Positions 7,425 through 32,845 of a stretch of DNA of 64,000 nucleotides are shown here, one piece after another; position 1 is the stretch's first letter, and each line of letters starts with the position of its first letter. The stretch comes from Dermatophilaceae bacterium Sec6.4. Its GTDB lineage: Bacteria > Actinomycetota > Actinomycetes > Actinomycetales > Dermatophilaceae. A model generated the notes under the pieces. It was not told the DNA's origin and ran no database searches. It was given only the letters and a program-made list of their open reading frames with translations. The stretch is taken from positions 372,001-436,000 of the forward strand of contig CP144172.1 of NCBI GenBank assembly GCA_039636865.1, read 5' to 3'. The position numbers were made by a program, and so were the translations under genes.

Positions 7425-7428
7425 CGGA

Positions 7429-7623
7429 TCAGCCCCTCAACGTCAGCGCGAGCACCGGGCAGGCATCGACCGCGGCCTTGACGAACGGGCGGTCACTCTC
7501 CGGCGGACGATCGTCCAACACCTCGACCAGGTCGTCGTCCCCCACTTCGAACAGATCGGGCGCCATCGCCTCGCACATACCGAGGCCTTGGCACTTGGCG
7601 AGATCGGCAACGATCCGCATCAT
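7429..7623 (-). CDS. [3Fe-4S]-type ferredoxin
   Basis: A 64-residue ferredoxin. Cluster ligands are visible as C-Q-G-L-G-M-C near residues 11-17 and a C-P near residue 55. Three cysteines with the fourth position filled by a non-Cys residue is the pattern of [3Fe-4S] ferredoxins that serve P450s and related oxygenases. Two adjacent ATGs (7623 and 7620) are possible starts; the first overlaps the stop of the rubredoxin segment as ATGA. It is co-transcribed with the downstream reductase. Confidence 0.88.
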   Translation of the reverse strand: MMRIVADLAKCQGLGMCEAMAPDLFEVGDDDLVEVLDDRPPESDRPFVKAAVDACPVLALTLRG

Positions 7624-17987: not shown

Positions 17988-18251
17988 TCACTTCACTCGC
18001 GGACTCTTGTCCTGTAGCCGGTCGATGTGCTCGGAAGCCTGCGCCTTGGTGAGGTCGGCCGGTAGCTGCTCGCCCGATTCTTTGGCGAGGGTATCGAGGT
18101 AACTGCGCTGGGCAGCGGTCATGGGCTCGTCACCGGTAACCCAGTCGCTCGGATCGCGCTCCAGGCCCTCGGGCTGCTGGGGAGTGCTCGCACCGATCAT
18201 GTCTTCGGAGGTGTTCTGCTCAGGTGCGGCCTTGTCAGATAGTTCGCTCAT
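17988..18251 (-). CDS. DUF3072 family protein
   Basis: 87 residues starting MSELSDK. The C-terminal half holds the DUF3072 core: M-T-A-A-Q-R-S-Y-L-D-T-L-A, then L-T-K-A-Q-A-S-E-H-I-D-R-L-Q. The N-terminal half is acidic and disordered. It is a short actinobacterial protein with a SAP/HeH-like helical end and unknown role. The frame extends to 18377, but the added part reads unlike protein. Convergent with the ABC transporter operon. Confidence 0.78.
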   Translation of the reverse strand: MSELSDKAAPEQNTSEDMIGASTPQQPEGLERDPSDWVTGDEPMTAAQRSYLDTLAKESGEQLPADLTKAQASEHIDRLQDKSPRVK

Positions 18252-18411
18252 ATGTCCACAGTAGGCGCTCGCGCTGACATTCGCCGAGGTCGTCGCGTGG
18301 CGACGATCCAGCGGATGGCACGATGGAGTGCAGAGTTGGTATTCGACAGCTCGTCCCTCGGAGCCGGATGTGCGCACAGCGCGTCACGCCCTCAAGAATC
18401 GGAGATACCTC

Positions 18412-18794: not shown

Positions 18795-19466
18795 CTAGTT
18801 CGCGCGTAGATATCCGGCGAAGCCGTCCGGGGTACGCCCCACCATGCGCGCGGAAGTCAGCACCGGTAGACCGGCGGTGGCAACCCACTGCAACCCTGCA
18901 GCCTTTACCCGGTCGGCCAGATCCACGTCCTCATGTACCGCAAGGGCTCGGAACCCGCCGGTCACCTCCAGTGCACGTCTGCTGAAGCCGAGATTTGCTC
19001 CATACACGTGTCCGTGCCCGTCCGCATTGCTGTGTGCCTGCTCCCAGCGGGTCAGCCGGCCCGGTGAGATCTCCTTTCCGTCCGGTATCACCGTGCCCAG
19101 GACGAGGTCGGCCCCATCGGACCCGATCTGGACCTGACGCTGTAGCCAGTCGCCCGGTACCGCAGAGTCCGCATCAGTGACTGCGAACCAGTCCGGGTCC
19201 AACGTGCGGGCCAAATGGTCCACCCCGACCTGCCGGGCCGCGCCGACGATGCCGACGGTCGTCGCGGTCGCCGCGACCCCCGGATGGCGGCGCACGATCT
19301 CGGCACTGTCATCGGTGCAGGAATCGAGCACCACCACGATCTGCAACTCGATGCCCGGACTCGCCGCGCGCAGGTGATCGCCGGCCACCGCCAACGCGGA
19401 CAGGCAGCGCGGCAGCAGACGGGATTCGTCGCGGGCGGGTACGACCACGCCGACCCGGGTGATCAC
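18795..19466 (-). CDS. Glycosyltransferase family 2
   Basis: 223 residues. GT-A fold motifs: V-V-V-P-A-R-D-E-S-R-L-L-P near the start, V-V-L-D-S-C-T-D-D-S near 50, and the metal-binding V-T-D-A-D-S-A-V-P near 100 with D-W-L after it. The later E-x-V-D-L-A-D-R-V segment is a usual acceptor-side Asp block. Short for a GT2, with no membrane helices. GTG 19466 gives a GTGA overlap with the upstream deacetylase gene; GTG 19472 is an alternative. It is the last gene of the catalase-ACAD-PIG-L-GT2 operon, so it probably glycosylates or elongates the product of that set (inference). Confidence 0.85.
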   Translation of the reverse strand: MITRVGVVVPARDESRLLPRCLSALAVAGDHLRAASPGIELQIVVVLDSCTDDSAEIVRRHPGVAATATTVGIVGAARQVGVDHLARTLDPDWFAVTDADSAVPGDWLQRQVQIGSDGADLVLGTVIPDGKEISPGRLTRWEQAHSNADGHGHVYGANLGFSRRALEVTGGFRALAVHEDVDLADRVKAAGLQWVATAGLPVLTSARMVGRTPDGFAGYLRAN

Positions 19467-20791
19467 GGGCACGGTCCGAATACCTCAAGAAGCACATCCA
19501 CGTCGGTATGCCGACCGTGCAGCGGCAGGTCCAGGCGTTCGGCAGCACGCGCATGCACCGCAGGTCCGTCCAACTCCCACCCGTCGATCGGGTGCGCCCA
19601 ATGACACAGCAGCACATAGCCGCCCGCACTCAGGCTGGTCCGGGCACGATGCAGCACATCGTCCAATGCGCCGCTCGACAAGAAGTACCCGACCTCGGAC
19701 AGCACGATCAGGTCGAAGTCCCCGTCCGGCCAGTCCTGCGGCATGCTCCCGTGCAGGGCCTGCACCTGCGGCCACTGCGCCAGGCGGACCCGGGCGGCCT
19801 GCACTGCGGTCTCACTCAGGTCCTGCACCACGAGCGCATCGCACCGTGGTGCCAGCGCCGCGCTCAGCTCGCCGATCGAGCAGCCGGGCTCATACGCGCG
19901 CCTAAAACGCGGCAGCGGCAACATGGCGAGCGTCAGGTCACGTTTACGACGCTCGTAAACGCTGCCCCGCACCCCCCAGGGGTCGACGTGCCCCGCATAC
20001 AGCCGCTCGAAGACGTCCATCCGAGCGCGCTCGGCCGTGTCGAGGAAGGTCTCGAACGGGCGGTCGAAATGAGCGAGCATCCCAGCGTTCAGCAGCACCT
20101 CGTCACCGGGCGCATCCGACAGCGGCCGTACCTGGGTGACGTGGGTCGCGAGCGCAGCCTGCTTGGCAGCGTGCGCCGCCTCGCTCAGATCGAGCACCGT
20201 GAGTTGGCTCCACGGAGTGTCCTCCGGCGTCCCTGCGTGCCACCACCAGATCGGGTACTCCAGCAGGAGGGCACCGGTCTGCGCCGCGACGGTGGCAGCG
20301 AGCGCACCGAGCGCGTCATGGTCAGGATGCCCGTCGAGGCGCCACGGTGCGGCGAGGATCACCCCTACTCCCAGATCGGCGACCGCATGGCGAACGACCG
20401 TCGACAGCTGCTGCACGCAGGATGCGAGTTCGCCATCGGGCAGTCCCAGGTGGAGCTGCGTTGCATCGGGGGCGAGTGCTGCGACTGCAGCCGTCACCTC
20501 CGCTCGGCGCAGCTGCGCCAGATCGGCCCGGCTGTGGGTCGGCGAATGCGGATGGGACGCCTCACCATCGGAGGCGATGATCACCTCGACCGGGATGCCT
20601 GCGGCGGCACAGGTCTGCAGCAAACCCCCGGCCCCCAGGGTCTCGTCGTCGGGGTGCGCCGCCAACAGGACCAGTTTGCGCAGGCCCCGGCCCGCCTCGA
20701 TACGCAGCCGCGGCAGTTGCGACCAGCGGTGATCGGCCGCCCACGACTGCTCGGGATACCCGTCGTCGAGGTGGTCGAAGGGCGCCGTCAC
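19463..20791 (-). CDS. PIG-L family deacetylase fused to a SAM-dependent methyltransferase
   Basis: 442 residues, two domains. The N-terminal PIG-L/LmbE zinc deacetylase (about 30-230) shows A-A-H-P-D-D-E-T-L-G near 44-53 and the second metal His in D-G-H-P-D-H-D near 150. This family removes N-acetyl from GlcNAc-containing substrates. The C-terminal class I methyltransferase (about 270-440) has E-P-G-C-S-I-G-E-L-S near 300, then V-V-Q-D-L-S-E-T-A and D-L-I-V-L-S-E-V-G-Y-F (NodS-like). The fusion suggests deacetylation followed by N-methylation of the same sugar (inference). It overlaps both neighbours by 4 bases. Confidence 0.88.
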   Translation of the reverse strand: MTAPFDHLDDGYPEQSWAADHRWSQLPRLRIEAGRGLRKLVLLAAHPDDETLGAGGLLQTCAAAGIPVEVIIASDGEASHPHSPTHSRADLAQLRRAEVTAAVAALAPDATQLHLGLPDGELASCVQQLSTVVRHAVADLGVGVILAAPWRLDGHPDHDALGALAATVAAQTGALLLEYPIWWWHAGTPEDTPWSQLTVLDLSEAAHAAKQAALATHVTQVRPLSDAPGDEVLLNAGMLAHFDRPFETFLDTAERARMDVFERLYAGHVDPWGVRGSVYERRKRDLTLAMLPLPRFRRAYEPGCSIGELSAALAPRCDALVVQDLSETAVQAARVRLAQWPQVQALHGSMPQDWPDGDFDLIVLSEVGYFLSSGALDDVLHRARTSLSAGGYVLLCHWAHPIDGWELDGPAVHARAAERLDLPLHGRHTDVDVLLEVFGPCP

Positions 20792-21852
20792 GACCCCGGA
20801 CCGGATGCCATGAGCGCGGCGCCGAGAGCCGCGAGGTCCCGCTCGCCATGGTCCTGGCGCACGTAGACCGACAGGTCCGCGACCCGACGGGAGTGCTCTT
20901 CTTCCAAGGTGAGCGGCGCCGGCCCACAGGCACGGGCAGTGATGGCGAGTACCTCGTCCACGGTGCTACGGGTCAGCGCGCGAGCTCGTCGCGCGAGCAC
21001 CTCGCCGTGATCCTGCCCTGCGTCGTCAACACACGAAGCGGCCTCGCCGAGAGCCGCCCGCACGGCATACAGGAGGGTGTCCGCTTGGCCGAGCTGCAGG
21101 TGGGCGATCTGGTCCGGTGCGCGCCTACTGCCCGGCTTCGGCGCGAGGCGTCTCGCCACGCCGGCCACCCCGCCGTACCAGCAGGCCGCGACACCGATAC
21201 CGCCCCACCAGAAACCGGGACGCACCAGATACCACCCCTCACCGCCGACCGGCGCCGCCCTCACACCTTTGAACTCGGCCGGAGCTGAGGGGATTTCGAT
21301 CAGGCCGCGACTGGCCCAGGCATCAGTTCGAGGGACCACGTCGGGCCCGAGAGCGACCGCGAAGAGCTGGCGGGTCGTCTCCGACGTCCAGGCAGTCACG
21401 AGCGCGTGCGAGAGACGCCCCGCCAACGAGCACCACGGCTTGACCCCGTCCAGCACCCATTCGCCCGCAATTTCCCGGGCCGTCAGCCGCCCGTCCGGAC
21501 CCTCAGCAGCGAATACTCCCCAGGTCGATCGCCCGTCAGCGCCGATCTCCGACAGGTCCAGCCCGGTCCGGGCCAGCCGCGCCTCAGACAGGATCGCCAG
21601 GGCGTCGACATGCGGTTCGAGGGTTCGCGCGACGGTCAGGTCGTACGCCGCGACCCTGGACAGCACGTCCCACAGCACCAGGGTCTGACCGCCGCCGGGC
21701 ATCGGCAGCCTCCCGGAAAGGCTCGCCGCGAGTTCCAGCGCGAAGTCGACCCGCCGCTGCGGGACCTTTCGGGGCAGGCCCAGCGCAATCTGCTGCTGCG
21801 GGTCGCACAGCTGACCCGCACCGACCGTCTCGGTCCAGGACGTGTCGCTCAT
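20788..21852 (-). CDS. Acyl-CoA dehydrogenase-like flavoprotein
   Basis: 354 residues. The middle beta domain (G-E-W-V-L-D-G-V-K-P-W-C-S-L-A near 130-145) and the helical C-terminus match the acyl-CoA dehydrogenase fold. It is short for the family (usually about 380), the first helices are reduced, and I cannot place the catalytic Glu. A true dehydrogenase or a flavin mono-oxygenase-like relative are both possible. ATG 21852 overlaps the catalase stop as ATGA. The consistent coupling to a PIG-L/methyltransferase and a GT2 points to a tailoring step on a sugar or lipid intermediate, not fatty-acid oxidation (inference). Confidence 0.78.
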   Translation of the reverse strand: MSDTSWTETVGAGQLCDPQQQIALGLPRKVPQRRVDFALELAASLSGRLPMPGGGQTLVLWDVLSRVAAYDLTVARTLEPHVDALAILSEARLARTGLDLSEIGADGRSTWGVFAAEGPDGRLTAREIAGEWVLDGVKPWCSLAGRLSHALVTAWTSETTRQLFAVALGPDVVPRTDAWASRGLIEIPSAPAEFKGVRAAPVGGEGWYLVRPGFWWGGIGVAACWYGGVAGVARRLAPKPGSRRAPDQIAHLQLGQADTLLYAVRAALGEAASCVDDAGQDHGEVLARRARALTRSTVDEVLAITARACGPAPLTLEEEHSRRVADLSVYVRQDHGERDLAALGAALMASGPGS

Positions 21853-23975
21853 CAGACCCCGGTCTCGAACCGGTCCCAACTGCGGTGCCCGGCCAGCAGG
21901 GTGAGGACGTCCTGCCCGACCTGGGCAGCGTCGCCGACGCTCACTCCGAGCCCGTCGGCGGGCACACCGGCAGCCGCGAGCGCCTGATCGGCACCGATAC
22001 CGCCGACCGCCTTGCTGTGCCGCCAGGCCTCCTGCAGCAGCTTGACGACCCTCGGGTCGGTGCTGTCGCTGTCGGCGGCACCGGCCTTCGCGTCAGCATG
22101 CACCTTCGCGTCCGGCCCGGGAGGTGTCGCACTCACGACGACAAGCGCGTCGAACTGGACCGATGCGGCTGCCGCGTAGACCTCCTGCACTGCGAAACCC
22201 GCGACCTTCCCGCCGTGTGGAGCAACGATCATTGCCACGACGCCCTGCCCGTCCAGCAATGCCTGCAAGGCCTTCACCTGCTTCACGTCGGGGTCTGCGC
22301 CGATGACGATGCCGACCTGACGCCCGGCGACCGGCCACGAACCGCCCACCTGTGTCAGGGCCGCACTCGGCTCGGCCTGTGCGACATCGACATCCGCCTT
22401 CGGCGCGGACTCGCCCAGGCCCTGCGCCACCTTTTCGCACAGACCGGAGTCGATGTTCGCGAGCGCCTGCAGCTGACGGGCGCGGACCTGCTGCTGCAGG
22501 CACTTGGACAACTCGAACGTGTAGGCAGCGATGATGTGGTCCTGCTCGACCGGGCTCATCGAACGGTAGAAGAGGCCGGCCTGGGAGAAGTGGTCGTCGA
22601 AGGTGGCCGGGTGCTCGCGTACTTTGCGAGACTGGTCGACGGTTACCGGTATGTCGACGTACGCCCCGTCACCGTCGCCCGCCATCACCGGGCAGCCACC
22701 TCCGAGCGAATTCCTGCGGTACGGCGCAATCCCGGTGTGTACGGCGCCCTGGTGGAAGCCGTCGCGCAGGTTGTCGTTGACCGGCGCATGGGTGCGGTTG
22801 ATCGGGATCTGGTTCCAGTTCGGCCCACCGAGGCGGGTTATCTGGGTGTCCAGGTAGGAGAACAACCGGGCCTGCAGCAGCGGGTCGTTGGTGACGTCGA
22901 TCCCGTCGACCAGGTTGGAGGGGTTGAAGGCCACCTGTTCGGTCTCAGCGAAATAATTGACCGGGTTCGCATTCAACGTCATGGTGCCGAGCAACTGGAC
23001 CGGCGCCAACTCCTCCGGTACGAACTTGGTCGGGTCCAGCAAGTCGATGCCCTCAAACATCGAGTCGTTGTCATCGGGCATCACCTGCACGCCCAGATCC
23101 CACTGCGGGTGCGCACCGGCCTCGATCGCGTCGGAAAGGTCGCGCCGGTGGAAGTCCGGGTCGACACCGTTGGTGATGAGGGCCTCCTCCCATGTCACCG
23201 AGTGCACACCCTGGCGCGGCTTCCAGTGGAACTTGACCAGGTGGGTGGCGCCCTCGTCATCCATCAAGCGGAAGGTGTGAACCCCGAAACCTTCCATTGT
23301 CCGCAGCGAACGAGGCACTCCGCGGTCACTCATGTTCCACATGGTGTGGGCCTGGGCCTCGGTGTGCAGCGAGACGAAATCCCAGAAGGTGTCGTGCGCG
23401 CTCTGCGCCTGCGGGATCTCCCGGTCAGGATGCGGCTTGGCTGCGTGCACGATGTCGGGGAACTTGATGCCGTCCTGGATGAAGAAGACCGGCATGTTGT
23501 TGCCGACCAGGTCGTAGTTGCCCTGCTGCGTGTAGAACCTGGTGGCGAAGCCGCGGGTATCGCGTGCCAGGTCGGCCGAGCCGCGCGACCCCAAAACGGT
23601 CGAGAACCTCACGAAGACAGGGGTTTCGACATCCTTCTTCAAGAACTCCGCGCGGCAGATCGACCCTGCGGCACCGTTGGCGACGAAGCTGCCGTGTGCG
23701 GCTGCGCCTCTGGCGTGCACCACCCGCTCGGGGATGCGCTCGTGGTCGAAGTGGCTGATCTTCTCCCGCAGGTGGTGGTCCTGCAGCAGTGTCGGACCGC
23801 GCGTGCCCGCCCGCAGCGAATGGTCGGTATCGCGCAGCCGTGCGCCGTGTGCGGTGGTGAGGAACTCCCCCTGTTGGCCCATGACCGAGCCGTCGAGACC
23901 CGTCGCGGCGCCGGTCGGTGTGACCGTTTCCGGTCCTTGCTGGTTCGCCAAGTCATTGGCCTCAGAATTTGTCAT
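21852..23975 (-). CDS. katE: Large-subunit (clade II) catalase, KatE type
   Basis: 707 residues, a monofunctional haem catalase with the long C-terminal DJ-1/PfpI-like domain (about 550-700). Catalytic His lies in V-V-H-A-R-G-A-A-A-H-G near 85-95, Asn in V-G-N-N-M-P-V-F-F-I near 160, and the proximal haem Tyr in A-R-L-F-S-Y-L-D-T-Q near 375. It destroys H2O2 in the cytoplasm. A GGAGGTAACG site precedes ATG 23975. It is translationally coupled to the acyl-CoA-dehydrogenase-like gene, which is not a usual partner. Confidence 0.95.
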   Translation of the reverse strand: MTNSEANDLANQQGPETVTPTGAATGLDGSVMGQQGEFLTTAHGARLRDTDHSLRAGTRGPTLLQDHHLREKISHFDHERIPERVVHARGAAAHGSFVANGAAGSICRAEFLKKDVETPVFVRFSTVLGSRGSADLARDTRGFATRFYTQQGNYDLVGNNMPVFFIQDGIKFPDIVHAAKPHPDREIPQAQSAHDTFWDFVSLHTEAQAHTMWNMSDRGVPRSLRTMEGFGVHTFRLMDDEGATHLVKFHWKPRQGVHSVTWEEALITNGVDPDFHRRDLSDAIEAGAHPQWDLGVQVMPDDNDSMFEGIDLLDPTKFVPEELAPVQLLGTMTLNANPVNYFAETEQVAFNPSNLVDGIDVTNDPLLQARLFSYLDTQITRLGGPNWNQIPINRTHAPVNDNLRDGFHQGAVHTGIAPYRRNSLGGGCPVMAGDGDGAYVDIPVTVDQSRKVREHPATFDDHFSQAGLFYRSMSPVEQDHIIAAYTFELSKCLQQQVRARQLQALANIDSGLCEKVAQGLGESAPKADVDVAQAEPSAALTQVGGSWPVAGRQVGIVIGADPDVKQVKALQALLDGQGVVAMIVAPHGGKVAGFAVQEVYAAAASVQFDALVVVSATPPGPDAKVHADAKAGAADSDSTDPRVVKLLQEAWRHSKAVGGIGADQALAAAGVPADGLGVSVGDAAQVGQDVLTLLAGHRSWDRFETGV

Positions 23976-24437
23976 GTTCGTTACCTCCGTAGTGTCCCGT
24001 CGTACTCAGCACATCTGTTCTCAGCGAATCACGTTCCGCTGACGCGCGCACCTGGCCGGTCCAGGGCAGGGCCGCTGTCCACAACGACACCACCACGATG
24101 CGGACCCGCTCCACGAGAGCGACATCGGCACCCACGAGTAGCAATGCGAGGTCGGCCAGCCCACGCAGTCCGACCAGTCCGCTCACGGTGTAACCGACCA
24201 GAAGCTGACGCAGCACACCCGTGACACCCCGATCAGTACCCACCCCATTGCCGGGCGGCTGTCCTGCCGGACGGAGAGGCCGCGCAGACCCCGCCGGCAC
24301 AGCGCCGCCAACGCGATCAGCAGAACTCCGGCCACGGCGTCCGAGGCGCGGTACACGAGTGCGGCAAGTACCCCGACGACCCGTGGTGCCGGACGACGAT
24401 CTCTCACCTGTCGGTCGCTCGACACCGGGTTGGTCAC
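23962..24437 (-). pseudogene. Small membrane protein gene with a probable frameshift
   Basis: The frame from ATG 24437 reads D-R-R-P-A-P-R-V-V-G-V-L-A-A-L-V-Y-R-A-S-D-A-V-A-G-V-L-L and ends at 24183 in an unlikely tail. Near 24215 the overlapping frame takes over with V-L-R-Q-L-L-V-G-Y-T-V-S-G-L-V-G-L and V-E-R-V-R-I-V-V-V-S-L-W-T-A and runs to 23962, overlapping the catalase start. Joined, the two give about 155 residues with three or four hydrophobic segments. Either a frameshifted gene or a sequencing slip. Function unrecognised. The remaining gap to 24556 shows nothing else. Confidence 0.4.
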
Positions 24438-24556
24438 ATCGTGGCTTTACCCACTCAGCCGGTCGATCACACATTGCATCGACCACAGGGGGGTTGGGAA
24501 CCCCCCTCGCCGGGGTACTGGACAGGGAACAGAACCCATCACCGACAGGAGCGACC

Positions 24557-24994
24557 ATGCCCGCCGCAGAACGTACGTTCACCGTGACACCGCCGCCCGA
24601 GACAGTGCTGAACTACCTCAAGGACTTCAGCAACGCGCAGGAGTGGGATCCGGGCACCGAAAAATGCCTTCAGAACGGTACCGGCCCGGTCGAGGTCGGC
24701 ACGACCTGGCACAACGAGTCGAAGCTCGCGGGGAACACCACCGAGTTGACCTACACCCTCACCGAACTCACCTCGGACCGCATCGTGTTCGTCGGTAAGA
24801 ACGACACGGTCACGATGACCGACACCATCGACGTCACCCCGGCCGGCACCGGCAGCCAGGTGCGTTACCACGCGGACATGGACCTGCAGGGTGCAGCGAA
24901 ACTGGCCGCACCCGTCGCGAAGCTGGGCCTGGAGAAGCTGGGCAATGACACCGAGAAGATGCTCACCGACGCCCTGAACGCCCTGGCCAGTTGA
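24557..24994 (+). CDS. SRPBCC (START/Bet v1-like) family protein
   Basis: 145 residues, polyketide-cyclase/START fold: F-T-V-T-P-P-P-E-T-V-L-N-Y-L-K-D-F near the start, W-D-P-G-T near 30, V-G-T-T-W-H, and a long C-terminal helix. Such proteins bind hydrophobic ligands; no catalytic residues can be assigned. GACAGGAG precedes ATG 24557. It is convergent with the WcbI gene: the stops are 2 bases apart. Confidence 0.83.
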   Translation: MPAAERTFTVTPPPETVLNYLKDFSNAQEWDPGTEKCLQNGTGPVEVGTTWHNESKLAGNTTELTYTLTELTSDRIVFVGKNDTVTMTDTIDVTPAGTGSQVRYHADMDLQGAAKLAAPVAKLGLEKLGNDTEKMLTDALNALAS

Positions 24995-24996
24995 GC

Positions 24997-25944
24997 TCAG
25001 AGCCGAAGGACTCGCACCAGTTCGGCGTGCCGCTGCAGACCCAGCGTGACCGCCTCGGGATGCTCGGCATACCAGCGCAGCTGCTCTTCGGCGATGTCCT
25101 GCTCGCTGACCTGCTCACCGCGCACCGACCACTGCGCGCGGGGCGTGCCCTCGATCCCCAGGGCTTGCAGAGTCTTGGGATACACCGGAGCTCGTAGGTC
25201 ACCCAGCAGCACCCGCCCGGGGTCGACGACGACGCCGCGGAGGCCGAGAGCCGCCAGGATCGCCTGCGCCACTTCGCGCAGCACGTAGTTGTGCGGGTGG
25301 TTGATCACCCAGCCGGTGTCGGCGCCGGCCCTTTCCAGGATGGTCGCGGCGTCGACGGTGCCGTGCCGCTCCTGTCGGGCGCGCAGTTGGGCCGCCGAGT
25401 CGTCGCGTACCGCGCGCACCCCGTCGGGGTGGACAGGGTCGAACGAGGGACGCACACCGTTGGCTGCCGCCAGCAGCACCCTCAGATCGTGATGCGGCAC
25501 GACCGGTGGATCTCCCACGCCCGGCACCCGCACGATGACCTGGGTCGGGAAGAGTGCCGCCCATCGGAGCGAGGGAAATCGGGCGATCACCGCTTTCTCA
25601 GGCAGCAGGTCAGCGATCTCGCGGGTGCCCAGTGGCAGGTCCCGATACTCGTCGACGACCGGTTGCGCGACCAGGTAGGTCGTGTCCGCAAGCACCGCGC
25701 GAAGGTAGGGCAGATCGGCGGCTTCGAGCTCATGCACCGGGGGCATCCGAACGGTGCGCCACCGCTGGTCTGCGGCACTGTCGAGCAGGATGCGGGTGGC
25801 TTCAGCCTGACAATTTCCGTAGACGATCAGCAACGGAAGATCGGGCTGCTCGGCGGCGTGCAGGCCGTAGAACTGCCCGTAGTGCTCACGTCGGCCCTGA
25901 TCGACCGGTTGCGCTGCGGTGTCGTCCGTCGAGGTGTCATCCAT
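24997..25944 (-). CDS. WcbI-family polysaccharide biosynthesis putative acetyltransferase
   Basis: 315 residues. The WcbI fold is indicated by L-L-I-V-Y-G-N-C-Q-A-E-A-T-R near residues 39-52 and by F-P-S-L-R-W-A-A-L-F-P after about 130. WcbI of Burkholderia capsule clusters binds CoA and is thought to acetylate sugars; activity is not established for this branch. No signal peptide. Last gene of a leftward three-gene operon with two glycosyltransferases; it overlaps the upstream GT by 8 bases. Confidence 0.78.
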   Translation of the reverse strand: MDDTSTDDTAAQPVDQGRREHYGQFYGLHAAEQPDLPLLIVYGNCQAEATRILLDSAADQRWRTVRMPPVHELEAADLPYLRAVLADTTYLVAQPVVDEYRDLPLGTREIADLLPEKAVIARFPSLRWAALFPTQVIVRVPGVGDPPVVPHHDLRVLLAAANGVRPSFDPVHPDGVRAVRDDSAAQLRARQERHGTVDAATILERAGADTGWVINHPHNYVLREVAQAILAALGLRGVVVDPGRVLLGDLRAPVYPKTLQALGIEGTPRAQWSVRGEQVSEQDIAEEQLRWYAEHPEAVTLGLQRHAELVRVLRL

Positions 25945-27154
25945 CGCGTGCCGCCTTTCCCATCATCTGCTCGAGTCCTTCGTCCGGCAGCTCGTGCACC
26001 CAACCGGGGGCTGGAGTCGGCGCGGGTGCGGGTAGGCCGAGGGCCAGCTGCCGGGTGCTTCGTATCTGCAGTATCCCCGCCACGTGGATCTCACCCGCGG
26101 CGCAGGCGTCGATGAGCGGGCAGGACAGTTGCAGCGGCGCCCACACGTCGACCTGGTACCGCCCGCGCCCGCTCACCCGGCTCGGCGGCGACCCGACATG
26201 CACCCGTGGGTCGGCGGTCAACGCGGCCGGAACCGCGGCGTGATCGACCCACCATACCCCGACGTCGCTGCGGCGCAGCAGTGCGAGCGCCGTCGCGAAC
26301 ACCTGCGCATCGTTGTGCTGCCCGTGCACCCGCACGACGATGTCGGGCAGCTCCCAGATCAGTCCCCGGCCGCGCACACTCGGGAGGGTGATGCGCTCGG
26401 CGAGGGCGAGGGATTCGGCGTCCTTGACGGCGCGCGACGCGCTGCGGTCGCCGGTCCGGGCCACGGCCTCCGGCCCGTCGTGCCAGGCGAGCGCGGCCGG
26501 CACATATCGCATCCGGGCTCCGAGTAACCGGCACCGCCAGGCCAGCTCCCAGTCCTCACCGCCGTAGCCGGTCATACTCTCGTCGAAACCGCCGGAGCGG
26601 GCCAAGAGTTCGCGATCCAGGGCGAGCACGGCAGAGATCACCAGCCGGAAATCCTCATCGCCTGCCTCCCTCAGATCGTCGGTGCGTCGGTAACCGTCGG
26701 CGAGCCACCACGGCGCCGGCAGCACGCGGGCAGCGGGCGGCCCCTCGCGCACCCACGTCGACACCTGCGCGGCGCTGCATCCCTCGAAGTCCGCGTGCAG
26801 GCGCCTACCGACGCCGAGAAAGCCGGGTCCGACCTGCTCGTAGGCAGTCGCCATGGCCGTCAGGTAGTCGGGCGAGGGAATCGTGTCGCCGTCGAGAAAC
26901 ACGACGAGATCACCATCTACGTGCGCAGCACCTAGATTTCGTGCAGCGGCGGCGCGGAAGCCGAGGTCCTCCTGTCGCACCAGGTCGATGCGGTAGGGCA
27001 GCTCGGGCAGCGCCGGGGCATGGGCCGAGCCGTCATCCGCAACGACAACGTGCAGGTCGGCCATTACGCAGGTCTGCGTGGCAAGGGCAAGCAGCACCCA
27101 CGACAGCCGCCGTTCGTCCTCGAAGTAAGGGACGACAACCCCGATAGCGCTCAT
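25937..27154 (-). CDS. Glycosyltransferase family 2 with galactosyltransferase-like C-terminal motif
   Basis: 405 residues. GT-A core: V-V-P-Y-F-E-D-E-R-R-L near the start, V-V-V-A-D-D-G-S near 37, the metal-binding F-L-D-G-D-T-I-P-S near 90, and G-Y-G-G-E-D-W-E-L-A-W-R near 195, the GT7-C galactosyltransferase motif. The last about 130 residues are extra and unrecognised. Cytoplasmic. Overlaps the upstream GT gene by 4 bases (ATGA). Confidence 0.88.
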   Translation of the reverse strand: MSAIGVVVPYFEDERRLSWVLLALATQTCVMADLHVVVADDGSAHAPALPELPYRIDLVRQEDLGFRAAAARNLGAAHVDGDLVVFLDGDTIPSPDYLTAMATAYEQVGPGFLGVGRRLHADFEGCSAAQVSTWVREGPPAARVLPAPWWLADGYRRTDDLREAGDEDFRLVISAVLALDRELLARSGGFDESMTGYGGEDWELAWRCRLLGARMRYVPAALAWHDGPEAVARTGDRSASRAVKDAESLALAERITLPSVRGRGLIWELPDIVVRVHGQHNDAQVFATALALLRRSDVGVWWVDHAAVPAALTADPRVHVGSPPSRVSGRGRYQVDVWAPLQLSCPLIDACAAGEIHVAGILQIRSTRQLALGLPAPAPTPAPGWVHELPDEGLEQMMGKAARDG

Positions 27155-28179
27155 GCCGGGCTCACTATCGGGCCGAGCGCGTCAATGGCGGCGAGCTGCA
27201 GGGCAGCAGCGCGTCGGGTGTCCGGCAAGGCTGCGTCATCCCACTGCGCCTCGGTGATCCAGGTCGAGGCCGGGTCACCCAGGGCTGCCGCGATAGCCGC
27301 CGGCAGATCCGGTGCCACCGTCACTGCCCAGGGTGCCCGCTGCGCCAACTCTGCGACGTACCGTCCCGGGGTCACGATCGGGCGGCGGCCACTACTGATC
27401 CAGCGGTTGATGGACCCGGACGCCGAGATATGGGTATGCGCGCATACCGGCACCACCGCCCGCCTGGCCCATTTTTCCAACTCCGCATCCGAGACGTACC
27501 CGGTGCACTCGAAGCGTCGCCCCTGACCGGCGGCGTCGCGCTCGAGCTGCGTCAGCAGATCATCGTGCCCACTGGATGCAGCACCGACTGCGATCAGCGG
27601 TATCGACGGCGGCAGCGCGCGCATTGCCAGCAGAGTCTGCTCATGGCCCTTTCCGGGATAGACGAAGCCGAGCACGACGACGTCAGGAGTGCCGCGGGCT
27701 CTACCAGCGTCGCGGGCCTCCGCCCGGGTCGCCCACCGCGCCGGCCGATCGACCGGCAACGGCACCACCGCCACCGGGGGCAGGGCGCCGACTCCTGCGG
27801 CCCGCCAGGTCTGCTGTAGTAGCTCGCGCTCGTGCGCGCTGCTGACCTGGATGCCGCACGCCAGCGACGCCACCCGGGCGTACCCCGCTTGCCTGCGCTG
27901 CATACCCGGCCCGTCGGAAGCCTGCGGGAGGTCGTGCAGGGTCACCGTCATCGCCCGGCCCTGCAGGATGTGGCGGACGCGTTCGGCAGCCTCGACGGCG
28001 TTTGATCCGAAGAGTGCGTCGGTGAAGTGCAGGTGCACCCGCGAGGTGGTCAACTCGGGTAGCTGTCCGTCGACGATGTTTACCGAGACGGCCCGGGGGG
28101 TATGACTTAACAGGGCTTCAGCGTGCAGCCGCACCCCGTGTCGGGGTGGCCCGGCCAGCGCCAACGTAAGGTCCCTCAT
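27151..28179 (-). CDS. Glycosyltransferase (GT-B type)
   Basis: 342 residues from ATG 28179. The C-terminal half is GT-B-like: V-V-V-L-G-F-V-Y-P-G-K-G-H-E-Q-T-L (phosphate-side loop), then F-E-C-T-G-Y-V-S-D-A-E-L near 235 and G-S-I-N-R-W-I-S-S-G-R-R-P-I-V-T-P near 275. The N-terminal acceptor domain is degenerate. The frame runs to 28299, but that would overlap the ribosome site of the divergent GT4 gene. First gene of the leftward trio; 42 bases separate it from the divergent operon, so the two promoters must overlap. Confidence 0.75.
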   Translation of the reverse strand: MRDLTLALAGPPRHGVRLHAEALLSHTPRAVSVNIVDGQLPELTTSRVHLHFTDALFGSNAVEAAERVRHILQGRAMTVTLHDLPQASDGPGMQRRQAGYARVASLACGIQVSSAHERELLQQTWRAAGVGALPPVAVVPLPVDRPARWATRAEARDAGRARGTPDVVVLGFVYPGKGHEQTLLAMRALPPSIPLIAVGAASSGHDDLLTQLERDAAGQGRRFECTGYVSDAELEKWARRAVVPVCAHTHISASGSINRWISSGRRPIVTPGRYVAELAQRAPWAVTVAPDLPAAIAAALGDPASTWITEAQWDDAALPDTRRAAALQLAAIDALGPIVSPA

Positions 28180-28221
28180 TGCATCAACGCTAAGCCAGTT
28201 TGCGAGTCGAAGGAGGTGAGC

Positions 28222-29388
28222 GTGTCTCATCTGCAGCAGGTCCCCACGTCGCTCGGGAGACGTGAGCACCGAAAACGGTCCCGAGGGCACCGCGACCATC
28301 AGCGGATCGCGATGATCGCTCCGTCACGCCACTGCATCAGCCCCCCATTCGCCGGCGGACTGGAATCACTGGTGTGGGACCTGCGCACCCGCCTGGAAGC
28401 TGACGGCCACGACGTCACTCTGATTGCACGCGAGGGATCGGACGGTGTCGATCCACAGTGGGAAATCGGCGGGGGTCGTTGGGCGCCCAGCGATCTGGCA
28501 TCGCGCGACCAGTCGATGCCGGCTGCGGAGTTCATGGCCGAGCACCACGACTACCTGCAGGTCATGCACCGACTCGCGCAGATCGGCCACCACCATTTCG
28601 ACGTCATCCACAACCATTCGTTGCACTATCTGCCGGTATCGCTCGCCAGCACCTGCGAGGTGCCGATGCTCACCACCCTGCACACCCCTCCGACGCCGTG
28701 GCTGGAGTCGGCCATCAGCGCTTCCCGGGGACCGGTCGGGTCGTTCACGGCCGTCAGCGGTTTCACTGCCCGGTCATGGACGGCACTACCGCAGCCTGCG
28801 ACCGTCATCCACAACGGCGTCGACCTGGACTGGTGGCGACCGGGACCTGGGGGCGACCACCTGTGGTGGTCCGGTCGCATCACCCCCGAGAAGGCGCCCC
28901 ACCTGGCGATCGATGCCGCGCGACATGCGGGGTACGACCTCGACTTCGCAGGACCGATCAGCGACCCGGCCTATTTTCGCGCCGAGGTGCGACCACGACT
29001 GGGACCGGGGGTGCGCTACCTCGGTCATCTGGCGGGCGCAGCCCAGGTGGAGCAGGTGCGCACGGCGCGGGCCGTGCTCGTGACCCCTACCTGGGACGAA
29101 CCGTTCGGGTTGGTCGTCATCGAAGCGCTTGCGTGCGGGACCCCGGTGGTCGCCTTCGGTAGGGGCGGCATCCCCGACATCCTGTCCTCACCCGAGGTGG
29201 GGACACTGGTGCCGTCCGGGGACACTCTCGCGATGGGTCACGCTGCGGTTGCCGCTGCCGGTATCTCGCGTGCGCGGGTGCGGCAGTTCGCCGAGCAGCA
29301 TTTCTCGCTCGACCGAATGACGGCCGCATATGTCGACCTTTACGCAACGCTGACCGAGCCCGGGTTGGATCGGGCCGTTGGCCCCTGA
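28222..29388 (+). CDS. Glycosyltransferase family 4
   Basis: 388 residues. N-terminal acceptor side begins R-I-A-M-I-A-P-S and has F-A-G-G-L-E-S-L-V-W; the donor side has W-S-G-R-I-T-P-E-K-A-P-H-L-A near 220 and the nucleotide-sugar E-x7-E pattern in W-D-E-P-F-G-L-V-V-I-E-A-L-A-C-G-T-P near 300. The start is GTG 28222 because a very strong AAGGAGGTGA site sits 5 bases upstream; ATG 28312 would match the usual family N-terminus and is an alternative. First gene of the five-gene rightward operon. Confidence 0.85.
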   Translation: MSHLQQVPTSLGRREHRKRSRGHRDHQRIAMIAPSRHCISPPFAGGLESLVWDLRTRLEADGHDVTLIAREGSDGVDPQWEIGGGRWAPSDLASRDQSMPAAEFMAEHHDYLQVMHRLAQIGHHHFDVIHNHSLHYLPVSLASTCEVPMLTTLHTPPTPWLESAISASRGPVGSFTAVSGFTARSWTALPQPATVIHNGVDLDWWRPGPGGDHLWWSGRITPEKAPHLAIDAARHAGYDLDFAGPISDPAYFRAEVRPRLGPGVRYLGHLAGAAQVEQVRTARAVLVTPTWDEPFGLVVIEALACGTPVVAFGRGGIPDILSSPEVGTLVPSGDTLAMGHAAVAAAGISRARVRQFAEQHFSLDRMTAAYVDLYATLTEPGLDRAVGP

Positions 29389-30427
29389 CCGCGACACCGT
29401 CCGTAGTGCCACCGTCCGTGTTGCGACCGTCCCGGGTCGCCATCCGTATGTGGACCGTTGCCTGGCCGGTGCCGACGGCATCGTGCACGCGCCCGACCCG
29501 GTGGGCAACGTCTCCTACGGTGATCCCTGGAGGCCCTCACCCGCGCTGGAACCCTCATGGGTGCATGCGCATTCCGAGGAGGTCGACGTTGTTCACCTGC
29601 ATTTCGGCTTCGAGCACCGGTCACCTGATCAGCTGCGCGAATGGACGCGTGCGCTGGCCGTCGCACGAGTGCCACTCGTCGTGACCGTGCATGACCTGGA
29701 CAACCCGCACCTGCGCGATCAGCACCTGCATCACGAGTCATTGGGCATTCTGACCGGCGCGGCTGCCGAGGTCATCACGCTGACCGATGGCGCCGCGAAA
29801 GAAGTCGGTTCACGATATGGAGTGACACCACACGTCATTTCGCACCCTCACCAGTTCGACCTGGACCTCGTTGGTTCCAGACACCGTGCGCGTTGCGCAG
29901 AACACCCGTTGATCGGCCTCAACCTGCGCTCACCGAGGCAGAATATCGACGCGGAAGGCGGCCTGGACGTACTGAGCGGCCTTCCCCCCACCTGGAGCGC
30001 CGTCGTGCGCGTGTCATCGCACCAGCAGATCCCACCTCGGGTGGCTGCGGGTGCACGGGACGGTCGGTGGGAGGTCCAGGTCGTGCCGGGCTGGTGCGAC
30101 GAGCGGGATCTCTGGAAATTCGTGTCCGGTCTGGACGCGCTGTTACTGCCATACCGCTGGGGAACGCACTCGGGGTGGGTCGAGTCCTGCTGGGATGTGG
30201 GAACGGATGTCGTCGCACCGCCGGTCGGGTACTACGGCGACCAGCACCCGGTCATCATGCTGCCGCTGAACGCCGACTCGGAAACGGTCCACCGCACCCT
30301 GCACGACATCACAGCCACCACGGTCGTACCCGAGGCCGAACTCGCGACCCGCAGGGAGCAACGACATGTCGAACAACTCGGTGTCGCAGCCACCCATGCC
30401 CAGCTCTACCGCGCCGTGCTTCGATGA
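29378..30427 (+). CDS. Probable glycosyltransferase, GT-B type
   Basis: 349 residues from TTG 29378, the only start in frame near the previous stop (11-base overlap). It resembles a GT4 relative: V-V-H-L-H-F-G-F-E near 72, V-P-L-V-V-T-V-H-D-L-D-N-P near 100, and a C-terminal part with L-W-K-F-V-S-G-L-D-A-L-L-L-P-Y-R-W-G-T-H-S-G-W-V-E. The standard E-x7-E pair is not obvious, the position being G-T-H-S-G-W-V-E-S. It may use an unusual donor or be non-canonical. Overlaps the next gene by 4 bases. Confidence 0.72.
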   Translation: MAPDRDTVRSATVRVATVPGRHPYVDRCLAGADGIVHAPDPVGNVSYGDPWRPSPALEPSWVHAHSEEVDVVHLHFGFEHRSPDQLREWTRALAVARVPLVVTVHDLDNPHLRDQHLHHESLGILTGAAAEVITLTDGAAKEVGSRYGVTPHVISHPHQFDLDLVGSRHRARCAEHPLIGLNLRSPRQNIDAEGGLDVLSGLPPTWSAVVRVSSHQQIPPRVAAGARDGRWEVQVVPGWCDERDLWKFVSGLDALLLPYRWGTHSGWVESCWDVGTDVVAPPVGYYGDQHPVIMLPLNADSETVHRTLHDITATTVVPEAELATRREQRHVEQLGVAATHAQLYRAVLR

Positions 30428-31425
30428 TCGGGTACTACGTGCACCACCAGGGGGCCGGCCACCTGCAACGGCTGCAGACCGTCGCCGCGCATCTTCAGAC
30501 ACCCGTTACCGGCCTCAGTTCGCTTGCGGCACCGAACGACTGGCCGGGTCACTGGGTCGGGCTGGATCACGATGACCGTCCCGCACCATTGCCGAACGCC
30601 GATATCGACGCGCACGGCCGACTGCACTGGGCTCCGCTGAACCACGAGGGGTACCGTGCCCGGATGGTTGCCATTGCAGCGTGGCTCGGCACGGCCCGGC
30701 CGCACCTGATGGTGGTGGATGTGTCCGTCGAGGTCGCCGTCCTCGCGCGGACCCTTGGTGTACCGGTAGCCGTCGTCGCGATGCGTGGTGACCGCCGGGA
30801 CGCTGGGCACGAACTGGCCTACGACCTCGCCACGAGGCTGCTGGCACCCTGGCCGGCGGACCTGGCCGAACCCGGGTGGCCGGATCGGTGGACCGCGAAA
30901 ACCTTTCACAGCGGTGCGTTCTCACGCTTCGACGAGATCGCTGCGCGGCCCGCGCCGACCCCCACCGGCGTCCTACCCCGGTCGGTCACCTGCCTGCTCG
31001 GCTCCGGCGGCAGCGGGTTGTCCGTGCGCGACGCCGAGGCCATCGCAGAGGCCACCCCGACATGGACCTGGACCTTCTGCGGTGCCGATTTCGGCCCATC
31101 GCGCGAACCGTTGCCAGACCTGCTGGCCCGGTCGCAGGTCGTGGTCACGCACGCCGGTCAGAACGCCGTGGCCGAGGTTGCCGCCTTGCGCCGACCGGCC
31201 GTGGTCGTCGCCCAGGATCGCCCGCACGGTGAGCAACGCGCCACCGCGCAGGCCCTGGACCGCGGCGGTATCGCGGTGACCTGCAATGGGTGGCCGCCCG
31301 TGACGGAGTGGCCCTCGTTGCTGGATCAGGCGCTCGAACGCGGCGGTTCGCGGTGGGGATCATGGAACGATCGGGCCGCAGCGCCCCGTTTCGCCGCCGA
31401 GCTGGACCGGCTGGCGCGGCAGTGA
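30424..31425 (+). CDS. MurG/UGT-like glycosyltransferase
   Basis: 333 residues from ATG 30424 (ATGA overlap). It starts I-G-Y-Y-V-H-H-Q-G-A-G-H-L-Q-R, the Gly-rich acceptor loop of GT28/GT1 enzymes, and has a C-terminal donor site with V-V-T-H-A-G-Q-N-A-V-A-E-V-A-A-L-R-R-P and D-R-P-H-G-E-Q near residue 250. The annotated frame extends 177 codons upstream through the previous gene in another frame; that part is a shadow. Probably transfers a sugar from a nucleotide donor to a lipid or glycan. Confidence 0.85.
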   Translation: MIGYYVHHQGAGHLQRLQTVAAHLQTPVTGLSSLAAPNDWPGHWVGLDHDDRPAPLPNADIDAHGRLHWAPLNHEGYRARMVAIAAWLGTARPHLMVVDVSVEVAVLARTLGVPVAVVAMRGDRRDAGHELAYDLATRLLAPWPADLAEPGWPDRWTAKTFHSGAFSRFDEIAARPAPTPTGVLPRSVTCLLGSGGSGLSVRDAEAIAEATPTWTWTFCGADFGPSREPLPDLLARSQVVVTHAGQNAVAEVAALRRPAVVVAQDRPHGEQRATAQALDRGGIAVTCNGWPPVTEWPSLLDQALERGGSRWGSWNDRAAAPRFAAELDRLARQ

Positions 31426-32294
31426 CTGCACCGATCACCACTGCACCGATCACCACTGCCCTGATCACTATTGCGCACGGTCGGCATGCTCATCTGACCG
31501 AGCAGGTGCGCCACGTTGACCGCGGCAGCAGCCGGCCGGATCACCACGTGGTCGTGGCCATGGGAGATGAGTCGATCCGTCCTCTGCTGGCCGATCACCC
31601 AGGTGTTGACGTGATCGATCTGGCGGCCGACCCAGCAGCCCTCCCACTCGCGGCAGCACGCAACCTGGGCGCTCAGATTGCACTCGAACACGGAGCGGAC
31701 ACGTTGATCTTTTTGGACGTGGACTGCCTGCCTGGTATCGACCTCGTACAGCGATACGCGCAGGTCACCGGTGCTGTGGCGAACGAGCCGCAGTTGTGGT
31801 GCGGGCCGGTGCACTACCTACCGCCGCTGACGACGGGTCGCCCTGGATACGACGACGGCGACCTGCTCGCCTCCCATCCGCACCCGGCCCGCCCCGCTCC
31901 GGCCCGGGGCGAGCTCATTCGCGAGCCGAGGCTGGAGTTGTTCTGGTCGCTGTCCTTCGCGATCAGTGCATTGCACTGGCGACAGCTCGGCGGATTCTGC
32001 GAGAACTACGTCGGGTACGGGGCAGAGGACACCGACTTCGCGCGCACTGCCGACGCGGCTGGGGGTGTGATGACCTGGGTCGGCGGTGCCACGGCTTACC
32101 ACCAGTACCACCCGACCAGCTCCCCGCCGGTGCAGCACCTCACCGATATCGTGCGCAACGCCAATCTCTTCCACCGCCGGTGGGGCGAATACCCGATGCT
32201 GGGATGGCTGGCGGAATTCCAGGCCCGCGGCCTGGCCGGCCGCGACCCGCACACCGGCAACTGGGAAGTCACACCCAACGCGTCACCGCACTAG
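31422..32294 (+). CDS. Glycosyltransferase family 2 with galactosyltransferase-like motif
   Basis: 290 residues from GTG 31422 (GTGA overlap). After a repetitive T-A-P-I-T N-terminus it has the GT-A blocks A-A-A-R-N-L-G-A-Q near 70, F-L-D-V-D-C-L-P-G near 90 (metal site) and G-Y-G-A-E-D-T-D-F-A near 205 (GT7-C motif), as in the GT2 at 25937-27154. The classic first-strand P-x-y-N segment is weak here. It is the fourth GT of the operon. Confidence 0.85.
   Translation: MTAPITTAPITTALITIAHGRHAHLTEQVRHVDRGSSRPDHHVVVAMGDESIRPLLADHPGVDVIDLAADPAALPLAAARNLGAQIALEHGADTLIFLDVDCLPGIDLVQRYAQVTGAVANEPQLWCGPVHYLPPLTTGRPGYDDGDLLASHPHPARPAPARGELIREPRLELFWSLSFAISALHWRQLGGFCENYVGYGAEDTDFARTADAAGGVMTWVGGATAYHQYHPTSSPPVQHLTDIVRNANLFHRRWGEYPMLGWLAEFQARGLAGRDPHTGNWEVTPNASPH
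31425..31469 (+). repeat. Three 15-bp tandem repeats at the GT2 N-terminus
   Basis: ACTGCACCGATCACC occurs at 31425-31439 and 31440-31454 exactly and at 31455-31469 with four changes. It encodes T-A-P-I-T, T-A-P-I-T, T-A-L-I-T. Being a whole number of codons it keeps the frame. Copy number could vary between strains. Confidence 0.85.
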
Positions 32295-32311
32295 AGGATG
32301 AGAGCTGTCTG

Positions 32312-32845
32312 ATGGCCTACCAATCGTTGGACCTGACACTCAGCCCCGACGGCGATGACGCCATCCGGGCCGGCTGGGAGGCGGTCACCGCACTGGGAGT
32401 GCCGTCCGAAGGCGGGCGCACGAGCGACAGCCACCGCCCGCACCTCACCCTGCTCGCCGCGCCGACGATGGGTCCTGAACTGCTGGATCTGGCTGTCCGC
32501 CGGATACGCCCCCTCCTGCCGCTGCGCATCGCGCTCGGTGCGGGCGTGGTGTTCGGCCACGGGCCGTTCGTTGCCGCGCACCTCGCGGTCATACCGCCAT
32601 CGCTCGGGCTGATCGCGCAGGAGCTACGACAGCACCAATTGCCCCGGCAGACCGGTGCGCAATCCGACGGTTCCGGGCAGCCGGCGCGCGACTGGATAGC
32701 CCACCTGACCCTGTCCAAGAAGGTGCCGATCGACCAACTGGGCGAGGTGATGCAGGCCGTGCGCCAGCATCGCCCAAATTTCGTGCAGATCGATCATCTG
32801 CGACATTGGGATCCAGCCTGTCGGGTTGTCACAACTCTTGTGTGA
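32312..32845 (+). CDS. 2'-5' RNA ligase/LigT-like phosphodiesterase
   Basis: 177 residues with the two hallmark H-x-T/S-L motifs: H-L-T-L-L near residue 45 and H-L-T-L-S near 131, giving the paired catalytic histidines of the 2H phosphoesterase superfamily. Members open 2',3'-cyclic phosphates or ADP-ribose cyclic phosphates. ATG 32312 follows the GT2 stop by 17 bases in the same operon. Its presence after four GT genes is unexpected. Confidence 0.83.
   Translation: MAYQSLDLTLSPDGDDAIRAGWEAVTALGVPSEGGRTSDSHRPHLTLLAAPTMGPELLDLAVRRIRPLLPLRIALGAGVVFGHGPFVAAHLAVIPPSLGLIAQELRQHQLPRQTGAQSDGSGQPARDWIAHLTLSKKVPIDQLGEVMQAVRQHRPNFVQIDHLRHWDPACRVVTTLV

Follow-up and report, generated by a model that had tools for sequence, protein, structure and literature searches.

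The stretch of DNA analysed here, called the window, is 64,000 nucleotides long and comes from the 3.79 Mb genome of Dermatophilaceae bacterium Sec6.4 (contig CP144172.1, positions 372,001–436,000). Window positions 18795–32845 carry a cluster of glycosyltransferase (GT) and putative sugar-tailoring genes, termed A to K (Table 1). By sequence comparison the cluster appears to consist of two conserved and separable modules, a tailoring module (C-B-A) and a GT module.

Genes of the cluster

The gene order is katE-C-B-A on the minus strand (operon 1, katE first and A last), an SRPBCC gene on the plus strand, F-E-D on the minus strand and G-H-I-J-K on the plus strand. A preliminary description of the interval named its GTs, a PIG-L deacetylase fused to a methyltransferase, a WcbI-type putative acetyltransferase, an acyl-CoA dehydrogenase (ACAD)-like protein and a LigT-like phosphodiesterase. 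The listed genes are right, but katE and the SRPBCC gene were left out. Three tight operons with 4-bp overlaps were also described. The genes are tightly packed and overlap, but the overlap is 4 bp at only four of the eight junctions measured (katE/C 1 bp, C/B 4, B/A 10, F/E 4, E/D 8, G/H 11, H/I 4, I/J 4); J and K do not overlap if K begins at its first ATG, which is an inferred start. Because katE and C overlap by 1 base, translation of C is probably coupled to that of the catalase gene in this species. Window proteins were scanned with Pfam and NCBIfam models.

Table 1. Positions in the window, strands and family assignments of the genes in the cluster
Gene	Positions	Strand	Assignment
A	18795..19472	-	GT2 glycosyltransferase; PF00535 45.2 bits; DxD motifs
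B	19463..20791	-	PIG-L deacetylase/NodS-like S-adenosylmethionine (SAM) methyltransferase fusion; PF02585 78.4 bits, PF05401 39.9 bits
C	20788..21852	-	ACAD-superfamily flavoprotein-like enzyme
katE	21852..23975	-	Large-subunit catalase; PF00199 535.9 bits; lineage-specific position
SRPBCC gene	24557-24994	+	Lies between katE and D
D	24997..25944	-	WcbI-type putative O-acyltransferase; PF18588 192.5 bits vs cut-off 29.2
E	25937..27154	-	GT2 with GT7C domain; PF13641 61.2 bits
F	27151..28230	-	GT-B glycosyltransferase without Pfam match; assigned by predicted structure
G	28312..29388	+	GT4 glycosyltransferase, GT module core; PF13439 65.5 bits; EX7E motif
H	29378..30427	+	GT4-like; PF13439 29.2 bits, barely above cut-off 28.5
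I	30424..31425	+	GT28 C-terminal/GT1-like, GT module core; PF04101 28.4 bits
J	31422..32294	+	GT2/galactosyltransferase-like, GT module core; PF10111 28.0 bits, PF02709 24.6 bits
K	32312..32845	+	LigT/2'-5' RNA ligase-like, accessory; PF13563 29.2 bits vs cut-off 27; start inferred

As described earlier, no sugar-nucleotide, polymerase or transporter genes are present among the genes scanned inside 18795–32845. Just past K, at 33167–34228 on the plus strand, there is a gene for an NAD(P)-binding protein with epimerase/dehydratase matches (PF13460 61.2 bits, PF01370 44.0 bits), which is a possible extra sugar enzyme judging from these matches and which adjoins K in two congeners as well. In the same two congeners (loci L038 and L039) A-B-C-D-E-F form one group, and neither katE nor the SRPBCC gene is matched in the space from C to D; these two genes were either gained in the window genome or lost in the congeners. 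K matches its family as described but is not a conserved member of the locus. It was matched only in the window and the two congeners, and in none of 30 other neighbourhoods of one set or 20 of a second, all taken as 20-kb stretches, and was rejected as a core member.

Conservation and linkage of the two modules

Relatives of C were sought by pattern scanning in a collection of 84,980 species, each represented by a single genome; at least 475 were confirmed and the best 80 kept as named loci. The window and the first relatives served to build the profiles of A to K, hence those loci match partly by construction; the 80 named loci, the plasmids and the phylum sample had no part in the profiles. 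C-B-A is complete and co-oriented in 78 of these best 80 loci, and the other two (L087 and L092) are short contigs of 6.2 and 8.5 kb. The first 32 neighbourhoods, all picked for a match to B, show A, B and C in 31; the remaining one (L059) stops at a contig edge. A phylum sample of 296 Actinomycetota contains 30 C-positive genomes, from which 20 neighbourhoods were taken (G000, G034, G037, G063, G276, G308, G328, G349, G360 and G370 were left out), and C, PIG-L, methyltransferase and A are all present in nine of the 20.

Ten divergent actinobacterial loci (L213–L222) all carry C and the methyltransferase, and nine carry A (L214 ends at a contig edge). A gene for a Pyr_redox_2-type NAD(P)H reductase, Pfam-scanned in two of them, adjoins the methyltransferase gene in all ten and sits between it and A in nine. 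Reductase homologues are found directly upstream of C in L049 and L090, which are probably the same species, and beside A on the opposite strand in the two congeners. The module occurs unfused on plasmids of Acinetobacter, Cupriavidus, Kitasatospora, Embleya, Comamonas, Pandoraea, Novosphingobium, Sphingobium and Legionella lytica; the PIG-L gene of Cupriavidus basilensis is separate from the others, on the far side of katE. The cassette is present in Actinomycetota and in Alpha-, Beta- and Gammaproteobacteria, and homologues of C alone also carry Pseudomonas, Paraburkholderia and Myxococcaceae names.

The GT module shows a nested pattern of occurrence. Among 97 relatives, at E ≤ 1e-10, 34 have I, 27 have F, 23 have D and 40 have C; all 23 genomes with D hold F, and 26 of the 27 with F hold I. 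From this distribution the module appears to be a G-I-J core to which H, E/F and D are added stepwise. A stretch of 20 kb takes in all six GTs from E to J, in variable order, in 21 of the 52 relative neighbourhoods (21 different genomes); these comprise five of the 32 neighbourhoods centred on B and 16 of the 20 centred on the GT module. In the phylum sample 15 of the 296 genomes hold I, and eight with strong and two with weak matches were examined for neighbours. G, I and J are near each other in all eight distant genomes with strong I, and H is present in seven. One of these loci (L244) has D, E and F too, yet its genome shows no match to C, and in another (L238) katE follows J. The two weak-I genomes (L246, L247) have no G-I-J-type cluster. 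Streptomyces names make up much of the 120 matches listed of 1,779 proteins in the search with I, and J is found near G and I in Actinomycetota and Alphaproteobacteria. Matches to I occur in 33 plasmid records, of which 13 places were examined besides L153 and L158.

The two modules co-occur more often than expected by chance. I and C are both present in 27 of the 97 relatives against 14 expected (Fisher p 2e-8), with the two within 20 kb in 17 of the 27. The set of 40 genomes with C includes six weaker matches (G015, G037, G043 and G044 at 57–85 bits, G063 and G083 at 113–116 bits); when these are dropped, 24 genomes hold both. In the phylum sample both are present in nine of 296 genomes against 1.5 expected (p 1e-6). 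Six of the nine lie outside the family of the window genome (p 2e-4), and there the modules are hundreds of kb apart or on different contigs. All these p-values are too small, the genomes being related. Direct operon linkage is seen in five Novosphingobium and Sphingobium plasmid loci, where G-A-I-C-PIG-L-MT-J (MT, methyltransferase) forms a single operon, although the matches to A are weak there (68–92 bits). katE stands directly before this operon in L153, L158 and L224 and is divergent in L227; none was seen in L233, in which I is in two pieces. In L062 the order A-E-F-D-B-C-katE, all on one strand, interleaves the modules.

That the modules are unrelated and were merely gathered in the same stress-gene islands, with co-occurrence arising from shared regulation or horizontal transfer, is improbable. 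Each module does occur without the other, the kinship of the genomes inflates the statistics, the sphingomonad copies lie in stress islands with katE, DUF3072, Hsp20 and Ku or LigD, and the window copy is beside a ferritin/Dps-like gene. Such gathering does not agree well with the single operon of the five sphingomonad plasmid loci, with the interleaved order in L062, or with the co-occurrence in other classes of the phylum, where the modules are mostly unlinked. The modules very probably form one coupled pathway. Conserved co-occurrence across Actinomycetota had been put forward in the preliminary description as support for a shared pathway; because it holds, the idea of a common pathway to a modified amino-sugar product is upheld. 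The three operons, which were taken as one set, do recur together, but they fall into two modules that can occur apart, C-B-A on the one hand and the G-I-J core plus H, E/F and D on the other.

Predicted activities of the encoded proteins

The PIG-L half of B carries the HxDD+H metal and base motif, as defined in PMC4101496, with H46, D48, D49 and H158 conserved in 30–31 of 33 aligned rows. The G-C..G positions of the methyltransferase half are kept in 32 of the 33 rows. This half is highly similar to a solved structure, 4isc_A (E = 7.9e-41); the PDB entry for this close homologue, of 164 residues, is listed simply as 'Methyltransferase'. Its score against the curated NodS model is below the cut-off (50.1 vs 300 bits), making it NodS-like and not a NodS. 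A likeness to the anti-phage protein mads_2 (51.8 bits) is also confined to this half, the other nine proteins showing none, and a role in anti-phage defence was rejected.

A NodS-like methyltransferase beside a deacetylase and a GT2 recalls Nod factor synthesis (NodC, NodB, NodS, NodA). In the Nod factor (lipochitooligosaccharide) pathway, deacetylation is followed by N-methylation, and by analogy the same deacetylate-then-N-methylate chemistry on an N-acetylglucosamine (GlcNAc) unit is suggested for this locus. The locus differs in having a PIG-L and not a NodB-type deacetylase, in the extra protein C, and in its low scores for NodS and for NodC (best 20.2 bits, for E, vs cut-off 550).

The mycothiol and bacillithiol pathways (MshA/B, BshA/B) are similar in that GT4-type transferases and a PIG-L deacetylase act in turn on a GlcNAc-glycoside. 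This likeness raises the alternative that a low-molecular-weight redox compound is made or glycosylated, either a thiol of the mycothiol or bacillithiol kind or a redox cofactor with attached sugar, for example mycofactocin. The alternative would fit the tetrahydrobiopterin glucosyltransferase likeness of G, the katE gene that is sometimes adjacent, and the weak matches of A and E to the mycofactocin GT MftF (43.4 and 85.2 bits), but the latter fall well short of the NCBIfam cut-off of 280, and B is likewise below the curated deacetylase cut-offs (MshB 23.6 vs 224.35 bits, BshB2 43.9 vs 195.25). The scanned window genes include no recognised cysteine ligase or mycofactocin gene, a methyltransferase and an ACAD-like protein are added, and up to seven GTs are more than such pathways are known to use. 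A redox compound is improbable on these grounds, even though PIG-L enzymes deacetylate GlcNAc-inositol and GlcNAc-malate (PMC4101496).

C scores 20.5 bits against the Pfam ACAD model, below the cut-off of 33.3, but structure comparison gives a confident ACAD fold, in agreement with the earlier assignment. Dehydrogenases and monooxygenases (KijD3, TdsC, DszC, MsuC) are close in score. Compared with the ACAD-fold amino-sugar N-oxygenases (KijD3, DnmZ and the Micromonospora nitrososynthase 3mxl) C shows a fold match at about 17% identity, and the sequence profile match to 3mxl is weak (E = 1.9e-4). The fold does not decide the function because true dehydrogenases match equally well.

The positions of the ACAD catalytic glutamate, which we take to be the C-terminal xEGT position and the IVD-type helix G position, were located by a profile alignment of C with seven proteins out of the 19 that match the ACAD family in the same genome. 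An invariant His334 falls at the xEGT position, with a local confidence of 0–1; an ungapped reading places the variable residue 333 there, which is Glu in three of 20 rows. The helix G position is occupied by an invariant Gly216. An xEGT-like motif is found in none of 31 C proteins. C is likely to be without the ACAD catalytic base, and no more than likely, because two points count against this: the near-zero confidence of the C-terminal alignment, and E336, two residues past the aligned catalytic position, where Glu is frequent (16 of 20 rows). C may be an oxygenase, because no conserved Glu is found at the aligned catalytic positions, the alignment being weak; that it is an N-oxygenase in particular is unlikely. 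An ordinary fatty-acid dehydrogenase is disfavoured by the lack of an xEGT-like motif and of a conserved Glu at these weakly aligned positions. About 11 kb from A, at window positions 6234–7623, a ferredoxin reductase-like gene adjoins a small ferredoxin-like gene (translation judged by eye), a pair that is a possible redox partner of C.

The count of seven GTs given earlier is right: A, E and J are GT2, G and H GT4 and I GT28, and F can be added because its model (predicted local distance difference test score, pLDDT, 87.5) matches the GT-B enzymes PimB', SenB, HepE and BshA in Foldseek despite the lack of a Pfam match. A profile match of F to Alr3699 (4xso, E = 1e-4) was also obtained. The closest solved structures to G are an unnamed GT and UDP-glucose:tetrahydrobiopterin glucosyltransferase (5zer, E = 4e-28). 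No solved relatives of A and J were found at the limits used.

E matches chondroitin synthase (2z87, E = 2e-19), and F resembles HepE, which acts in heterocyst envelope polysaccharide. D belongs to the WcbI family, named for polysaccharide biosynthesis, with a weak match to the solved capsule protein 4bqn (E = 0.04). These likenesses are in keeping with a cell-envelope glycoconjugate, that is a glycolipid or a wall or capsule glycan, with lipid carrier and export genes elsewhere and D O-acetylating the product in the way proposed for WcbI of a capsule locus. Seven GTs would also be many for a small solute, and the epimerase/dehydratase-like gene just past K would have a place in such a pathway.

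Other observations count against this envelope product. No flippase or polymerase family was recognised among the scanned window genes, and none of A to K has a clear transmembrane segment (top 19-residue Kyte-Doolittle mean 1.86). Clustering of predicted genes showed no further family shared by most of 20 GT-module loci or 80 C loci, and among the clusters examined no recurrent family was recognised as a lipid carrier or flippase; the genes were predicted with a crude gene finder that recovered C itself in 66 of the 80. Families found in the 80 C loci, judged by eye from sequence starts, are alcohol dehydrogenase-like (14 loci), short-chain dehydrogenase/reductase-like (14), aldo-keto reductase-like (12) and ABC transporter ATPase-like (12), the last being a point in favour of the envelope product. 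A Dps-like family is found in 11 of the 80 by clustering and in four by direct search. Two clusters, found in 25 and 18 loci, consist of open reading frames that overlap C-B-A in antisense and are apparently spurious. An envelope glycoconjugate is rather unlikely, also in view of the trehalose, sucrose-phosphate and katE genes that are partners of the modules in other lineages.

Stress and solute neighbours and a proposed pathway

In the plasmids of Comamonas antarctica and C. endophytica the order is otsA-C-PIG-L-MT-GT2-otsB, i.e. the set is situated between otsA and otsB. otsA is near the set in all three Acinetobacter loci examined (A. haemolyticus, A. towneri and A. soli), and katE is also nearby in A. 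haemolyticus and A. towneri. The Acinetobacter plasmid loci L150, L160 and L161 carry C-B-A and otsA, and two of the three also have otsB, catalase, DUF421 and DUF2171 genes nearby in a stress-island-like setting. In Legionella lytica the set follows otsB and a GH65 gene, and in Cupriavidus basilensis maltosyltransferase, maltokinase and katE genes are near it. Two plasmid records came without annotation. A DUF3072 gene is found beside the locus in the window (17988–18254), and DUF3072 is also near katE, GT and C-B-A genes on the Novosphingobium plasmid L227.

The GT module displays a link to sucrose synthesis. In all eight alphaproteobacterial plasmid loci examined that hold I and no C (L225, L226, L229–L232, L234, L235), a sucrose-phosphate synthase (SPS)-like gene adjoins I and J, and G is not far away. 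In both loci scanned the SPS-like gene is fused to a sucrose-6-phosphate phosphatase (S6PP) domain (PF05116 154 and 152 bits), and the L232 copy is too short for a fusion. A sulfotransferase gene is near these genes in L226, L229, L231 and L234. The SPS-like gene with I, J and G is apparently a separate oligosaccharide operon. One Arthrobacter and one Rhodococcus plasmid contain G, I and J with no SPS-like gene annotated.

Expression data are available for a similar set in Acinetobacter baumannii. ACICU_02432–02435, annotated as GT, SAM methyltransferase, LmbE and ACAD-related and labelled as one operon, show a 31–62-fold drop in two colistin-dependent mutants, and otsA/otsB and a catalase are down 12–50-fold in the same mutants (PMC5660220, Table 2). 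No GT module is reported beside that operon and no function is given, as far as the available part of that source goes. In the text seen of a 2026 Acinetobacter desiccation paper (PMC13130816) the set is unnamed, catalases are not prominent and several acyl-CoA dehydrogenases fell. The likeness to trehalose (OtsA/OtsB) and sucrose (SPS and sucrose-phosphate phosphatase, SPP) solute synthesis lies in the linked operons of Comamonas and the alphaproteobacterial plasmids and in the parallel expression change in A. baumannii (PMC5660220, as above); the difference lies in the several GTs and the amine chemistry that the modules add.

The preliminary description offered a modified amino-sugar glycolipid or a small glycoside as the product. 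The modified amino sugar is retained and the glycolipid is weakened, although an ABC ATPase-like family does recur. Since the neighbours elsewhere are katE, otsA/otsB, SPS and stress genes, a soluble glycoside is favoured over a glycolipid. The product is read as a soluble protectant because the modules neighbour trehalose, sucrose and katE genes and because no membrane or export genes were recognised within the interval. The locus is read here, with a probability of roughly 0.5, as encoding a pathway associated with stress that makes a soluble, N-modified aminosugar oligosaccharide, perhaps with a trehalose- or sucrose-type core. The association with stress is probable when taken singly, the odds that the product is a soluble aminosugar oligosaccharide are about even, and the trehalose- or sucrose-type acceptor is doubtful.

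A number of observations weigh against this reading. The modules are separable, seven of the 34 genomes with I having no C and 13 of the 40 with C having no I. Nor is C-B-A itself indivisible, because no PIG-L was found within the stretches of the divergent loci L213–L222, L203 has C and PIG-L with no methyltransferase or A nearby, and Methylobacterium sp. FF17 has a lone C homologue. No trehalose genes are annotated near the set in Pandoraea or Kitasatospora, and no otsA match above 60 bits lies near C-B-A in the 80 named Actinomycetota loci; one partial OtsA match was seen in L054. In the window genome OtsA (454 bits) is about 585 kb from the locus. No clear SPP is found in that genome, and a sucrose acceptor is unlikely there because the best S6PP-family match is weak and partial (29.2 bits). 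katE is near only eight of the 80 named C loci. A SigB/SigF-type promoter (GTTT-N13-18-GGGTA) is not enriched upstream of C, being found at ≥8/9 matches in six of 73 loci against a shuffled mean of 3.4 (maximum 6) and four on the reverse strand; L087, L092, L096, L111, L112, L117 and L122 were left out of this test. The A. baumannii data come from lipid A synthesis mutants and not from stress as such (PMC5660220), and ACICU_02432–02435 is a likely equivalent of the unfused C-B-A, matched by annotation.

Based on the enzyme families, substrates, order of steps, product and role may be proposed for the stress-associated pathway as follows. The GT module (G, I and J, with H, E and F as extensions) would build a short oligosaccharide in the cytoplasm from common sugar nucleotides, on an acceptor that is probably small and soluble, e.g. 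a non-reducing disaccharide of the trehalose or sucrose type. The GT2 A would attach an N-acetylated sugar, the PIG-L half of B would take off the acetyl group and the NodS-like half would methylate the freed amine. C would then oxidise the amine or a site next to it, the electrons perhaps being supplied by an NAD(P)H reductase, and D may O-acylate the product. Under oxidative or desiccation stress the cell would in this way make a soluble protectant or glycoside. The locus is a new combination of known enzyme kinds; no description of C-B-A or G-I-J as a pathway was recognised in the literature searched, which did not take in most subscription papers.

The most specific form of this proposal, a widespread and undescribed class of intracellular protectants consisting of trehalose- or sucrose-capped oligosaccharides with an N-methyl, N-oxidised aminosugar of the hydroxylamine or nitrone type, is very improbable. 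If it is true, an N-oxidised aminosugar from a four-enzyme cassette (GT2, PIG-L, NodS-like methyltransferase and ACAD-fold N-oxygenase) could itself scavenge radicals, and the recurrent association with catalase, seen in two phyla and on plasmids, would then have an explanation. If the product is, more generally, an aminosugar stress protectant, a function would be provided for genes listed as 'LmbE, methyltransferase, acyl-CoA dehydrogenase-related, glycosyltransferase', and amine chemistry would be added to the biology of compatible solutes.

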